Assembly: GCA_902633125.1 (NCBI GenBank)
Contig: CACPEZ010000001.1
Location: 186,001-250,000 of the forward strand
DNA length: 64,000 nt
From: an uncultured Pelagibacteraceae bacterium
GTDB lineage: Bacteria > Pseudomonadota > Alphaproteobacteria > Pelagibacterales > Pelagibacteraceae
Direction: 5' to 3'
Shown: positions 36,872-56,816 of the stretch, piece by piece
Position numbering within the stretch: the first letter of the stretch is position 1
Layout of the letters: each line of letters opens with the position of its first letter
Program-made: the position numbers and the translations under genes
Notes under the pieces: generated by a model
What the model was told of the DNA's origin: nothing
The model's input: only the letters and a program-made list of their open reading frames with translations
Database searches by the model: none

Positions 36872-37452
36872 TCAGAAGCCTCTAAATACTCTAGTATTTT
36901 TTTTATTGGTAGACCCATGACTGTATCTTCATCACCCTCTATTTTTAAAAAAAGAGATCTTCCCTCTCCTTCAATTTGATAAACATTATAGGAATATAAA
37001 GCTTCGTCTGGTATTTTATTTAAATATATTTGTAATTCGTCATTCGAAAATTTTTTCATTTTTAAAAATGCTTTGTCTGTGTAATTCCATATCATCGAAC
37101 CATTTTTAGAAATACAAACAGAGCTAATGAGTAAATGCGTTTTTCCATTTAATTTTTTCAAAATATTAAGAGCTTCTTCTCTATTTGTAGGTTTTGAAAT
37201 TAACTCTCCATCAATATCTATTACGCTGTCTGCCCCCAAAACAAGCATATCCTGATTTTGTTGGCTAATTTTATTAGCTTTTAACTCAGCTAAATTTTTT
37301 GAAACTATTTCTGGAGTAGCACCTATTCCAAGTAGACTTTTTTTAACAGGCTCCTCGTCTACATTGGATGGTTTAATTATACATTCTACTCCATTTTTTT
37401 TTAGAATTTCTTCTCTAACTTTGCTCTTTGATGCTAATATAATACTACGCAT
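36868..37452 (-). CDS. maf: Maf family nucleotide pyrophosphatase
   Basis: IILASKSKVREEILKKNGV, VLGADSVIDIDG. Confidence 0.95.
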   Translation of the reverse strand: MRSIILASKSKVREEILKKNGVECIIKPSNVDEEPVKKSLLGIGATPEIVSKNLAELKANKISQQNQDMLVLGADSVIDIDGELISKPTNREEALNILKKLNGKTHLLISSVCISKNGSMIWNYTDKAFLKMKKFSNDELQIYLNKIPDEALYSYNVYQIEGEGRSLFLKIEGDEDTVMGLPIKKILEYLEASE

Positions 37453-38266
37453 TTTTATTCTTTATCTCAAAAATTTTAATTATTGATGCAGCAGTTTCCT
37501 CAACTGATTTTCTTGTCACATCAATAATAGGCCATTTATTTTGTTTAAATATTTTCCTAGATTGGTCGATCTCATCTCTTATTTTTTCCAAACTAGTATA
37601 ATCAGACGCTTCGTTTTCTTTTAGTGAATTTAGTCGGTTTCTCCTTATATCATATAATCTTTCTGCCTCTGTTGTTAAACCAATAATACAAATGGTGCTC
37701 GATTTTATCACTTCTTTTGGTATGCTCATATCGTTAACTAATGGAATGTTTGAAGTTTTTAAGCCTTTATTTGCCAAATATATCGATGTTGGAGTTTTGC
37801 TTGTTCGACTCACACCAATTAAAATTATATCCGACTCTAAAATATTCTCAGTATTGTTTCCATCATCATGGTTCATTGTAAATTGAATTGCTTCAATTCT
37901 TTTATAATAATCCTCGTCTAGGACGTGTTGAGCGCTCGGTTGATGAGTGGCTCTTTGATTTAAGATTTTTGAGAAGTTTAAAATTAAATCACCCAACACT
38001 CCGAAGCATGGAATTTGTTTCTTATTTGCTTCCTCAGATAAAAACTTAGCAAGCTTACTATTTACTACTGTGTATAAAATTATAGGGCTATCCTTGTTTT
38101 TGGCATCTTTGAGTATTGTGGATATTTGGTTTTCTGTTCTAGTAAATGAAAACTGATTTAACTCATAATTGAAATTGCTAAATTGAGCTTTTAAAGCCAT
38201 AAATATTCTGTCTAAAGTTTCCCCTGTGGAGTCTGATATTAAATAAACTTGATGTGTATTTTTCAT
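37445..38266 (-). CDS. ppsR: Pyruvate, phosphate dikinase regulatory protein (DUF299)
   Basis: VYLISDSTGETLDRIFMALKAQF, ILIGVSRTSKTPTSIYLANKGLKTSNIPLV. Confidence 0.95.
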   Translation of the reverse strand: MKNTHQVYLISDSTGETLDRIFMALKAQFSNFNYELNQFSFTRTENQISTILKDAKNKDSPIILYTVVNSKLAKFLSEEANKKQIPCFGVLGDLILNFSKILNQRATHQPSAQHVLDEDYYKRIEAIQFTMNHDDGNNTENILESDIILIGVSRTSKTPTSIYLANKGLKTSNIPLVNDMSIPKEVIKSSTICIIGLTTEAERLYDIRRNRLNSLKENEASDYTSLEKIRDEIDQSRKIFKQNKWPIIDVTRKSVEETAASIIKIFEIKNKNA

Positions 38267-38547
38267 GTATAAATAGTATATAAACTTTTAATTAAATAAG
38301 AATTATACTTAAAACTTAAATAAATTTTTAATTTTATAATTTATTACCAATTAATTAACATTTTTATATTTGTGGATACTTTATTAACAATTTTGCAATT
38401 TAATAAAATCGTTAAATAATCTAAGTTTTAAAAGATTTTTTTATAAATAGTATGTATAAAAAATGTATAAACTGTTGAAATTGAGTAATTTACGTTATCT
38501 ACAATTCATACTAATAATAAAATAAGAATATATATATTTTATTATAA
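38267..38547. other. Putative chromosomal replication origin (oriC) region
   Basis: AT-rich 281-bp intergenic strand switch between ppsR and hemE (the alphaproteobacterial oriC context), with DnaA-box-like TGTGGATAC (38371-38379) and TTATCTACA (38495-38503). Confidence 0.72.
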
Positions 38548-39549
38548 ATGACACCTATTCAAGAATGCTTAATAAATAAAAGGACTGATGTAAATCCCAT
38601 TTGGTTGATGAGACAAGCAGGCAGATATTTGCCTGAGTTTAGGGAGATTAGAAAAAAGAACACGAATTTTATAGAATTATGCTTAAACGAAGAACTCTCA
38701 GAGATAATAACACTACAGCCATTAGATAGATTCAAATTTGATGCTGCTATAATCTTTTCAGATATTTTAATGATACCTTTTGGTATGGGGCAAAAAGTAG
38801 AATTTCAAAAGAATTTTGGACCTAGGCTTGGAGAGATTAACAAAGAAGAAATGTTTAACTTAAAGGAAACTTATTTTTCAGATAAATTACAACCAATATA
38901 TAAACTAATAAATAACGTAAAAAGAAATGAAAAATTAAAAAATAAAGATGTAATCGGATTTGTAGGAGCACCATGGACTTTGCTTGTTTATATGATTAAT
39001 AAAGTTTCCCCAAAAAATGGGTTATCAAAATTCTTCTTTAAAGACACAAGTTTGATAATAGATATTTTAGAAATATTAGACAAATTCATTAAATTACATA
39101 TCAAAAATCAAGTAGAGGCAGGGGCAACAATAATTCAAATTTTTGATAGTTGGGCAGGATTAATTGAAAATGATTTTGACAAATATTTATATAAACCAAC
39201 TTCTTCACTAGTTGATTATACCAAAAAACTTGGTGTACCTGTTATTTGTTTTCCTAGAGGTATCTCTGATTACAAAGTCTTTTGTAAGGTTGTAAAACCT
39301 AGCATGGTTAATATAGATTATAATGTTAATTTAAAAAATATTATTAGTGATGTAGAGATACCCATCCAAGGAGGACTTGACCCACAAATCTTATTAACAA
39401 ATAAGGATATGCTTAATCTAGAGGTAAACAAGTACTTAGAAGCATTTAGAGATCGCCCTTACGTATTTAATTTAGGCCATGGTATCCTTCCAGAAACAAA
39501 AATCGAAATGGTAGAAGAGTTAGTAAAAATTGTAAGGAATTTTAAATAA
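38548..39549 (+). CDS. hemE: Uroporphyrinogen decarboxylase
   Basis: PIWLMRQAGRYLPEFREIR, GFVGAPWTLLVYMI, FNLGHGILPET. Confidence 0.98.
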   Translation: MTPIQECLINKRTDVNPIWLMRQAGRYLPEFREIRKKNTNFIELCLNEELSEIITLQPLDRFKFDAAIIFSDILMIPFGMGQKVEFQKNFGPRLGEINKEEMFNLKETYFSDKLQPIYKLINNVKRNEKLKNKDVIGFVGAPWTLLVYMINKVSPKNGLSKFFFKDTSLIIDILEILDKFIKLHIKNQVEAGATIIQIFDSWAGLIENDFDKYLYKPTSSLVDYTKKLGVPVICFPRGISDYKVFCKVVKPSMVNIDYNVNLKNIISDVEIPIQGGLDPQILLTNKDMLNLEVNKYLEAFRDRPYVFNLGHGILPETKIEMVEELVKIVRNFK

Positions 39550-42311: not shown

Positions 42312-43151
42312 TTAAAGATAACCTAATTCCTCCATTTCCTTTCTAAATAATTTTTCGATTGCTTTCGCGGTTTGTGGCTTAATTAGTTCTTTATAATTGT
42401 TTTTTTTTCCAAGATTAAAAAACTTTTTAGTCTTACCGTCTTTTCTTGAGTAAACTGCCTCAACAAATCCTTCGTCTTCCTCTTTTTTTTTTAAAATATC
42501 AAATTTAGTTGTCTCAATGGCTGAACCAAATTTTTTTTGATCAACTTTATTATTCTTTTTTAAAAGGTTGTCTGTAAAATTCAAAATTTCCAAGAATGTC
42601 TCATTTTCCTTATTTTCCAGGTCTTCGTATTTTATAATCAATTTGTTAATATTTTTTGACATTTTCCAAGATTTATAATTATTCGCCCATGAGCTAATAA
42701 ATGAATAACTTGAAAAATCATAATTATCATTTTCATCTCTTAAATTTCTATAAATACTGTTTATCATTTTTAAAGCATCATCCTCAGTTAATGAATAATG
42801 ATTCATTAATGAGGTCAGAACATTTCTAGGATCTCTTACTATATAAATAGCACCCAATGTAAAATCTGGTGTGGTAAAACTTTTACCTTTATAGGCTCCA
42901 TAAACATTATGAGTTTTTAAAAAACAAAACTCATTTTGATCATTTATTTTTTTTTGAGCAATCAACCAATTTTCTGCAGCCTCATCTACACTTTTCAATT
43001 TTTGGCTTAAAAAATCTCTGCTCGGAAATTGTCTTATTTTTTCAAGTAGTTTAAAATCAAACTTTCCATCATGAGAATAATAATAAGCAGATAAAAAAGA
43101 TCTTACCCACGTATTTCCACTTTTTGGGTAAGATGCCAGCCAAATAATCAT
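42312..43151 (-). CDS. Sulfotransferase domain protein
   Basis: IWLASYPKSGNTWVRSFLSAYYY (PAPS-binding motif), IYIVRDPRNVLTSLMNHY. Confidence 0.93.
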   Translation of the reverse strand: MIIWLASYPKSGNTWVRSFLSAYYYSHDGKFDFKLLEKIRQFPSRDFLSQKLKSVDEAAENWLIAQKKINDQNEFCFLKTHNVYGAYKGKSFTTPDFTLGAIYIVRDPRNVLTSLMNHYSLTEDDALKMINSIYRNLRDENDNYDFSSYSFISSWANNYKSWKMSKNINKLIIKYEDLENKENETFLEILNFTDNLLKKNNKVDQKKFGSAIETTKFDILKKKEEDEGFVEAVYSRKDGKTKKFFNLGKKNNYKELIKPQTAKAIEKLFRKEMEELGYL

Positions 43152-46473: not shown

Positions 46474-47117
46474 TTGATTCGAATAATTTAAAAGTTGATA
46501 AAATTCTAAATCTAAGTGTTTCACGTGAAACACTAAGAGAGCTAGACGACTTTTCAAAAGCAATATTTTTAAGAAATAAAAGCATAAATTTGATTGGTAA
46601 AAGCACAGAAAATTCAATAAAACAAAGGCATATAGAGGATAGTGCACAAACCATTGATTTTATTGATAAAAAAGATATTAAAATTTGTACTGACCTTGGA
46701 TCAGGCGCAGGCTTACCTGGTATAGTTTTAAGTATTTTAATGAAACCAAAAAAACCAATGTTTAAAGTGATTTTTTATGAAAAAAGCTATCATAAAAGCA
46801 TTTTCATAAAAGAAATGACAAAAAAATTTAAATTAACTTCCGAAGTTTACAGAAAAAATATTTTTGATGAAAAAAATTTGAGTACAGATGTAATAATTTC
46901 ACGCGCTTTTAAACCCTTACCAATAATTTTTCAAATTGCACAAACAAATTTTAAAAATTTTAAATATATTATTTTATTTCTCGGCAAAAGTGGAAAAAAA
47001 ATCTTAGAAGATGCACTCAAGATCTGGAGATTTGACTACGAAGAAAAAAAAAGTTTAACAAATAATGACTCTATAATTGTAAAAATTTCAAATCTGGAAA
47101 AAAAATATGAATATTGA
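46470..47117 (+). CDS. rsmG: 16S rRNA (guanine(527)-N(7))-methyltransferase
   Basis: [38 protein letters not shown]. Confidence 0.95.
46517..46532. promoter_or_regulatory. parS centromere-like site (ParB binding)
   Basis: Exact TGTTTCACGTGAAACA, within a 20-bp perfect palindrome AGTGTTTCACGTGAAACACT (46515-46534); adjacent to parAB. Confidence 0.95.
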
Positions 47118-47207: not shown

Positions 47208-48008
47208 ATGGAAAAAAAAATTATATCAGTCATCAATCAAAAAGGAGGTGTGGGTAAGACGACTACAGTTATTAATTTAGCGGCTGGATTATCTATGAAA
47301 GGAAAAAAAGTTTTAGTGATAGACTTGGATCCACAGGGAAATGCCACTACAGGTCTAGGGTTATCAAATACTACAACATCAGACATGACAATTTACAACG
47401 TGCTAAATGGCAATAAAAATATTTATGAAGTTGTACAGAAAACTGACTTTGCAAATCTGAACTTAATATCCTCTAATGTAGATTTATCAGGATTAGAGGT
47501 TGAAACTGCTGGAGATAGCCGCAGAGCTTTTAAATTAAAGGATGAATTAGGGTCTATTTTAAATGATTCTAGCGCATCATATGATTATATACTAATCGAT
47601 TGTCCGCCATCTCTAAGTTTGCTTACAATTATGGCGTTAGTGGCTTCAGATGCCCTAGTCGTTCCACTTCAGACAGAATTTTTTGCCTTGGAGGGTCTGA
47701 CACAACTCATGAAAACAATCGAAAGAATTAGATCTAATTTAAATCCGTCTCTGGTGATAAGAGGCATTCTTCTTACTATGTATGATAAAAGAAATAAGTT
47801 GTCAGGGCAGGTTGAAGTAGAAGCAAGAAACTATTTTAAAGAAAAAGTTTACTCCACAGTGGTTCCACGTAATGTCAGATTGTCAGAAGCCCCATCACAT
47901 GGCATACCAGTATTACTATATGACAAGGTTTGTCCAGGTAGCAAAGCATACTTTAAATTTGCAGAGGAATTTTTAGACCAAGATAAACAGGTAGAGAGCG
48001 CAGCATGA
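47208..48008 (+). CDS. parA: Chromosome partitioning ATPase ParA
   Basis: ISVINQKGGVGKTTTVINLAAGLS, IDLDPQGNATTGLG. Confidence 0.98.
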   Translation: MEKKIISVINQKGGVGKTTTVINLAAGLSMKGKKVLVIDLDPQGNATTGLGLSNTTTSDMTIYNVLNGNKNIYEVVQKTDFANLNLISSNVDLSGLEVETAGDSRRAFKLKDELGSILNDSSASYDYILIDCPPSLSLLTIMALVASDALVVPLQTEFFALEGLTQLMKTIERIRSNLNPSLVIRGILLTMYDKRNKLSGQVEVEARNYFKEKVYSTVVPRNVRLSEAPSHGIPVLLYDKVCPGSKAYFKFAEEFLDQDKQVESAA

Positions 48009-48856
48009 TTAATCCTTTTAAAAATAAGAAGGGTCTGGGAAGAGGACTCTCGTCTTTAATAGGTGATAGTGATATAAAATCTTCTAACGATAAAATTTCT
48101 ATAAGTTCTATTATTCCAAATAAAAATCAACCAAGAAAGATATTTGAAAAAGAAGCTTTAGAAGATTTAAAAAATTCTATTAAGGAAAGAGGCATTATCC
48201 AACCATTAATTGTTAGAAGATCAAATGATCAGAACGGTATGTTTGAATTAATTGCTGGTGAAAGAAGATGGCAAGCGGCGCAATCTGCTGGTCTTCACGA
48301 GGTACCTGTCGTTGTTGTCGAGGCTGATAATTTGAAATCATTGGAGTTAGCAATTATTGAAAACGTCCAGAGAAAGGATTTAAATCCTATTGAGGAAGCA
48401 GAAAGTTACAAAAATTTAATTGATAATTTTGGGTATGATCAAGATAAGGTTTCAGTATTTATTGGTAAAAGTAGATCCCATATTTCAAATTCTTTGAGAT
48501 TATTGTCTCTACCAGAAAAGATAATTGAGATGATAAAAAATGAAAAAATATCACAAGGACATGCTAAAGTTTTAATTGGGCTAGATAATGCATTGCTTCT
48601 TGCAGAAAAAATTATAAAAAAAAAATTGTCTGTAAGACAAACTGAGAGCCTAGTAAGAATAATAAAAAACGGTTCAAATAAAATTTATAAGTCGAAAGAT
48701 ACGAATGTATTAGCTACCGAGAAAGAACTAGCTGAGAAAATTGGCATGCGTGTAATATTAAATAATAAAAAAAATAATTCTGGAATACTTTCATTTGAAT
48801 ATAAAGACATAGATCAATTGGATAGATTAATTAGGGTAATTAAAAATAATTACTAA
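48005..48856 (+). CDS. parB: Chromosome partitioning protein ParB
   Basis: KKGLGRGLSSLIGD, IIPNKNQPRKIFEKEALEDL, GERRWQAAQSAG, ENVQRKDLNPIEEAESY. Confidence 0.98.
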   Translation: MINPFKNKKGLGRGLSSLIGDSDIKSSNDKISISSIIPNKNQPRKIFEKEALEDLKNSIKERGIIQPLIVRRSNDQNGMFELIAGERRWQAAQSAGLHEVPVVVVEADNLKSLELAIIENVQRKDLNPIEEAESYKNLIDNFGYDQDKVSVFIGKSRSHISNSLRLLSLPEKIIEMIKNEKISQGHAKVLIGLDNALLLAEKIIKKKLSVRQTESLVRIIKNGSNKIYKSKDTNVLATEKELAEKIGMRVILNNKKNNSGILSFEYKDIDQLDRLIRVIKNNY

Positions 48857-56264: not shown

Positions 56265-56816
56265 ATGCAGAAACAAAATTTATTAATTCATAATTCTACA
56301 ATTTTGTATGATATTTTATTTGAAATTAAACATCTTGTCAGTTTTAATATAAAGGAAATAAGTAATCTTGAGATAGAAGAACAAAGTTTTCATGCTTTAG
56401 ATTTAATAATTTCTGATGATGAACTTAAATTAGAAAATCAAATAAAAATTCATTCAAAACCAATTCAATTACCAAAATTGATTGATTCTATAAACCTAAG
56501 CTTTCTGAAAAACAAAATCAATTTTCAAAAAGATATAAAAATTGGAAATTATATTATAAACTTTAATACTCGAAAATTGTTCAAAGAAAATAAAGTTCTT
56601 TCTTTAACAGAAAAAGAAGCACTGATTATTAGTTTTTTAAATAACGCCAAAAATGCTGCATCAATAAAAGAACTTCAAAAAAATGTTTGGGGATATAAAT
56701 CTAAACTCGAGACACATACGGTAGAAACCCATGTGTATAGACTAAGAAAGAAAATTCTAAAAACTTTTGACGATAACAATTTTATAAAAAGTTTAAAATT
56801 AGGATACAAAATATAA
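56265..56816 (+). CDS. OmpR-type winged-helix DNA-binding protein with non-canonical N-terminal domain
   Basis: LSLTEKEALIISFLNNAKNAASIKELQKNVWGYKSKLETHTVETHVYRLRKKI. Confidence 0.9.
   Translation: MQKQNLLIHNSTILYDILFEIKHLVSFNIKEISNLEIEEQSFHALDLIISDDELKLENQIKIHSKPIQLPKLIDSINLSFLKNKINFQKDIKIGNYIINFNTRKLFKENKVLSLTEKEALIISFLNNAKNAASIKELQKNVWGYKSKLETHTVETHVYRLRKKILKTFDDNNFIKSLKLGYKI

Follow-up and report, generated by a model that had tools for sequence, protein, structure and literature searches.

A probable chromosomal replication origin in the ppsR-hemE intergenic gap of a SAR11 bacterium

Introduction

At which bases does a SAR11 bacterium begin to replicate its chromosome? SAR11 is among the most abundant marine bacterial groups and is hard to manipulate. 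A base-level origin would give peak-to-trough growth estimates a fixed reference point and would supply a defined fragment for probing streamlined alphaproteobacterial initiation without the usual CtrA, IHF, and GANTC sites. The one SAR11 study we found that used origin positions relied on the GC skew of reordered contigs to place them (PMC9516812). Our literature search found no base-level SAR11 oriC and no report pairing Pelagibacter ubique with DoriC; a database entry may exist.

The window analyzed here is a stretch of 64,000 nucleotides (positions 186001 to 250000 of contig C1) from a 994-kb draft genome in 37 contigs, whose named neighbors are Pelagibacteraceae, i.e., SAR11. An initial annotation had pointed to a 281-bp gap between divergent genes in this window as a probable oriC. 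The location, DnaA boxes, A+T content, proximity of parS and parAB, and conservation across genomes all support that proposal, which is also backed by a strand-asymmetry switch in one complete relative (G012). We conclude that the ppsR-hemE gap is very probably the chromosomal replication origin of this bacterium. On sequence grounds, the predicted location is the one expected for the alphaproteobacterial type, now mapped at base level.

Results

Genomic context of the gap

The gap separates divergent ppsR and hemE and contains 12.8% G+C, compared with 29.3% in the window. The main features of the locus are as follows.

37445-38266, minus strand: ppsR (COG1806/DUF299), left boundary (PF03618 Kinase-PPPase, E value of 6e-93)
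38267-38547, unstranded: probable oriC region, the ppsR-hemE intergenic gap (254 to 288 bp long across 101 distinct relatives)
38548-39549, plus strand: hemE, right boundary (PF01208 URO-D, E value of 4e-80)
46517-46532, unstranded: parS, perfect TGTTTCACGTGAAACA, inside rsmG (the assembly holds no other exact copy; the gap is 8 kb away)
47208-48856, plus strand: parA and parB (AAA_31, ParB_N, and HTH_ParB)

Pfam matches also confirm the flanking Maf, ferrochelatase, and UPF0093 (hemJ) genes. To the right of hemE, the gene order is hemH, hemJ, rho, mnmE, mnmG, rsmG, parA, and parB, in which the names rho, mnmE, and mnmG rest on reading frames. The gap is adjoined by hemE and COG1806, and this neighborhood is retained in the sampled relatives. 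The annotation had named hemE and DUF299 as known origin neighbors, and the same boundary genes do flank the Caulobacter and Rickettsia origins (PMC1914354).

Two other frames in the window were called by eye. A sulfotransferase-like frame (42312-43151, starting ASYPKSGNTW) lies on the opposite strand and breaks the gene row right of the origin, between rho and mnmE. Further along, a 183-amino-acid frame (56265-56816) appears to combine a winged-helix response-regulator C terminus with an atypical N-terminal part and may be an orphan regulator.

The perfect parS was not listed in the initial annotation. One exact parS is present in 50 of 81 genomes, at a distance of about 7 to 13 kb from the gap or from hemE in every comparison made, and G012 carries a one-mismatch copy ∼7 kb from its gap. 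Placement near the origin is the most common one for parS (PMC7333895). The dnaA gene of the draft genome is located on another contig, as a full open frame of 468 amino acids whose DNA-binding domain carries the RDHTTV motif.

Conserved DnaA boxes at fixed positions

Single 9-mers with one mismatch carry little weight alone. The window overall is not enriched in DnaA boxes, with 25 sites at no more than one mismatch versus 21.6 expected, while the gap holds 4 sites within one mismatch of TTATNCACA versus 0.63 in dinucleotide shuffles (P = 0.0015). No exact TTATNCACA box is present in the window's own gap; exact copies occur in the gaps of 58 of the 101 relatives. Exact box counts across the draft genome were also tried and gave no signal (10 copies versus 18 of a reversed control pattern). 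Among the 7 gaps of at least 150 bp in 238 kb of its contig, a part of the draft genome, the ppsR-hemE gap is the longest, has the highest A+T content, and holds the most boxes (4; next, 1), DnaA boxes being the only sites counted. It likewise ranks first in box number among 41 such gaps in 633 kb sampled from G012 (4 versus at most 2).

Alignment of 101 distinct ppsR-hemE gaps shows conservation close to the level of the adjacent coding DNA at the gap ends and in a middle block, and not in the stretches between them. DnaA-like boxes (no more than one mismatch) recur at fixed positions, with a mean of 3.98 per gap versus 0.75 in shuffles.

38275-38283, minus strand: conserved DnaA-like box position toward ppsR (site with no more than one mismatch in 76/101 relatives); degenerate in the window (2 mismatches), with TGTTTATAA in many relatives
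38371-38379, minus strand: DnaA box TGTGGATAC, 1 mismatch (site with no more than one mismatch in 61/101); relatives often carry TGTGAATAA, the exact TTATNCACA complement
38381-38389, plus strand: DnaA-like box TTATTAACA, 1 mismatch to TTATNCACA (54/101 here; 14 more shifted one base on)
38451-38459, minus strand: weak DnaA-like site TATGTATAA, first of a pair 11 bp apart (35/101)
38462-38470, minus strand: weak DnaA-like site AATGTATAA, 2 mismatches, 11 bp past the 38451 site (no more than one mismatch in 27/101)
38495-38503, plus strand: main conserved DnaA box TTATCTACA, adjoining the trios described below (90/101 relatives); relatives carry TTATTCACA, TTATCAACA, or TTATCCACA

The initial annotation gave the gap coordinates, three box-like 9-mers, and a 12-bp direct repeat with correct positions and letters throughout, and each of the three 9-mers differs from TTATCCACA or its complement at one base. 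It did not list the conserved sites at 38381-38389 and 38451-38459 or the trio run at 38508-38519. Two of its elements were dropped as support for oriC because neither is conserved among relatives. The direct repeat TATAAATAGTAT is indeed present at 38268 and 38442 but was found in 0 of 100 other distinct relatives, and the box inside ppsR at 38117, correct in its letters, is near consensus (no more than one mismatch) in just 1 of 101.

A predicted box-plus-trio unwinding module

The main box is followed on its right by two elements that extend to the hemE start.

38508-38519, plus strand: DnaA-trio run ATA-CTA-ATA-ATA (complement 3′-TAT-GAT-TAT-TAT-5′), separated by 4 bp from the main box
38520-38547, unstranded: A+T tract to the hemE start, AAATAAGAATATATATATTTTATTATAA, a probable duplex-unwinding stretch (the sister family has TATATATA here)

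In the described DnaA-trio rule, the top strand reads 5′-CTA-3′ with a fixed middle T, downstream of a DnaA box (PMC8287927; PMC8235120). The mean [AC]TA run is 2.78 for 23 cluster representatives versus 0.89 in shuffled sequences (shuffle maximum, 1.35), and a run of four trios is present in 84 of 101 relatives. T predominates at each successive third place (87, 61, 74, and 87% of the cluster representatives); across relatives, the dominant T is followed by A and preceded mainly by A or C. By the rule for the bacterial basal unwinding system (BUS), a DnaA box with up to two mismatches lies no further than 16 bp from three or more NAN trios on the bound strand; the site has the box at 38495-38503, a 4-bp spacer, and four trios. 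This rule is lenient in A+T-rich DNA, and stronger support comes from the conserved periodicity. The layout of box, trios, and A+T tract fits a predicted DnaA-trio unwinding module.

The draft genome has a single match to the box-plus-four-trios pattern, at the site in the window; a set of 81 genomes has 13 matches, and by their coordinates all 13 fall in the ppsR-hemE gap. As the pattern was derived from the site itself, these counts show uniqueness and are not an independent discovery. The trios are not universal, being degenerate or looser in part of family f1 and in most f2 g2 sequences.

In the sister family f2 (L082 to L090), ppsR was undetected (0/32 sampled genomes) and maf now neighbors the origin, while hemE and the origin module stayed together. 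Some f2 genera carry CACAGG followed by CTACTACTACTA and TATATATA directly upstream of hemE. The pattern CACAGG-N-CTACTAC was found in only 2 of 32 f2 genomes, with one further match in an f1 genome; it is rare in f2 because most f2 g2 sequences have the looser run.

Strand asymmetry

Raw GC skew in the window and contig is dominated by gene direction and was discarded as uninformative. Skew was therefore measured at 4-fold sites and fitted with gene strand as a covariate. In G012, which was read as stretches covering 47% of its complete genome, the T-A skew flips at the gap from 0.041 to −0.040 (60 kb on each side), with a best offset of 0 and t of about −5.5. No T-A flip was found at the G012 dnaA, 63 kb from the gap (0.044 and 0.039 over 60 kb). 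Gene orientation in this genome places the origin at 1.23 to 1.31 Mb and the terminus near 0.61 Mb, and 60% of genes are co-oriented given an origin at 1.262 Mb and a terminus at 0.59 Mb.

SAR11 skew is weak and uneven across the genomes measured. A second relative, G042, has an equally strong flip, with a best fit 16 to 31 kb from the gap, and the switch is weak in the f2 genome G049. The skew test suggested in the initial annotation gives mixed results: the T-A skew flips at the gap in G012, and the signal in the draft contig is too weak to decide, its skew at the gap being nonsignificant (t of 1.6 for T-A and −1.7 for G-C).

The signs of the skew also differ among genomes. The 4-fold sites of the presumed leading strand favor A over T in G012 and G042, and the T-A sign of the draft contig is reversed relative to these two (nonsignificant). 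The presumed leading strand favors C over G in G042, G049, and the draft contig, opposite to the usual G-rich leading strand.

CtrA, IHF, and GANTC sites

The window's gap contains no CtrA site (TTAA-N7-TTAA), no IHF site (WATCA-N5-WTR), and no GANTC. CtrA sites are present in the gaps of 49 of 101 relatives at scattered positions; such sites are variable in, and absent from some, alphaproteobacterial origins (PMC1914354). The IHF consensus averages 0.33 per gap in relatives versus 0.45 by chance, and IHF/HU-family proteins are encoded. GANTC is rare across relatives' gaps, with 0.04 per gap versus 0.33 expected in shuffles. GANTC methylation has been reported in Pelagibacter (PMC9516812), and a search of 6 genomes detected an intact N6/N4 methyltransferase domain in 4 (not in the draft genome or G039). 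That the gap has no GANTC is therefore not simply due to SAR11 lacking this mark.

Discussion

The layout and conservation of the gap suggest how initiation might proceed. DnaA would bind the boxes of the gap, anchored by the box at 38495-38503, and a DnaA filament would grow from there along one strand of the trios (38508-38519). This would open the A+T tract preceding hemE for helicase loading, after which ParB, acting at parS 8 kb away, would segregate the new origins.

The conserved blocks could instead be transcription signals, the gap serving only as the divergent promoter region of ppsR and hemE. The gap is indeed divergent and has promoter-like hexamers on both strands, and the conserved TACTAAT stretch could be a −10 element of hemE. 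The promoter-like matches, however, are at chance level (6 found versus 5.1 expected), and a promoter predicts neither five or six fixed positions for DnaA boxes nor a 3-bp periodicity after the box. Nor does it predict the sole genomic occurrence of the pattern, the proximity of parS, or a skew switch at the gap, and the hemE-side module persists in f2, where ppsR is undetected. We therefore regard a promoter-only gap as very unlikely; promoter and origin roles can coexist in the same DNA.

The ppsR-hemE synteny might also be an ancestral leftover, with the origin now elsewhere, for example at dnaA, which oriC adjoins in many bacteria. The coarse 4-fold G-C skew in G012 fits best near 1.22 Mb, a point that falls between dnaA at 1.199 Mb and the gap at 1.262 Mb, and leans to some extent toward such a relocation. 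Yet the T-A skew of that genome does not change across dnaA and flips at the gap, parS and parAB sit on the gap side, and no sampled G012 intergenic region matches the gap in box number. A relocated origin is accordingly an even fainter prospect than a promoter-only gap, and we retain the ppsR-hemE gap as the very probable origin.

More tentatively, and with somewhat more doubt than confidence, the SAR11 origin may be a stripped-down version of the alphaproteobacterial type. It would have kept its place at hemE and dropped the CtrA, IHF, and CcrM (GANTC) control sites; it would open through the box-plus-trio module, whose trios drifted from CTA repeats to mixed ATA/CTA, and DnaA itself would be the main point of control over initiation.

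The predicted module resembles the BUS of Bacillus subtilis and Helicobacter pylori, in which a box, a short spacer, three or more consecutive NTN triplets (four in the window), and an A+T tract follow in the same order (PMC8287927; PMC8235120). It differs from them in that its trios are mostly ATA with one CTA rather than repeated CTA, its spacer is not G+C rich, and it has weak sites further upstream in place of a close tandem second box. Among Alphaproteobacteria, Caulobacter crescentus Cori and Rickettsia prowazekii oriC share with the SAR11 gap the hemE/COG1806 boundary, an A+T-rich gap of a similar order of size, and several DnaA boxes (PMC1914354). Compared with these origins, the window's gap lacks CtrA sites, the IHF consensus, and GANTC, and its boxes are weaker. 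The origins of Wolbachia and other Rickettsiales retain the hemE boundary while the other boundary gene changes (PMC1914354). Whereas Wolbachia has COG1253 as the partner, together with CtrA and IHF sites, the window still has ppsR, and it is in SAR11 family f2, with maf at the boundary, that the Rickettsiales pattern of a constant hemE and a changing partner is found again.
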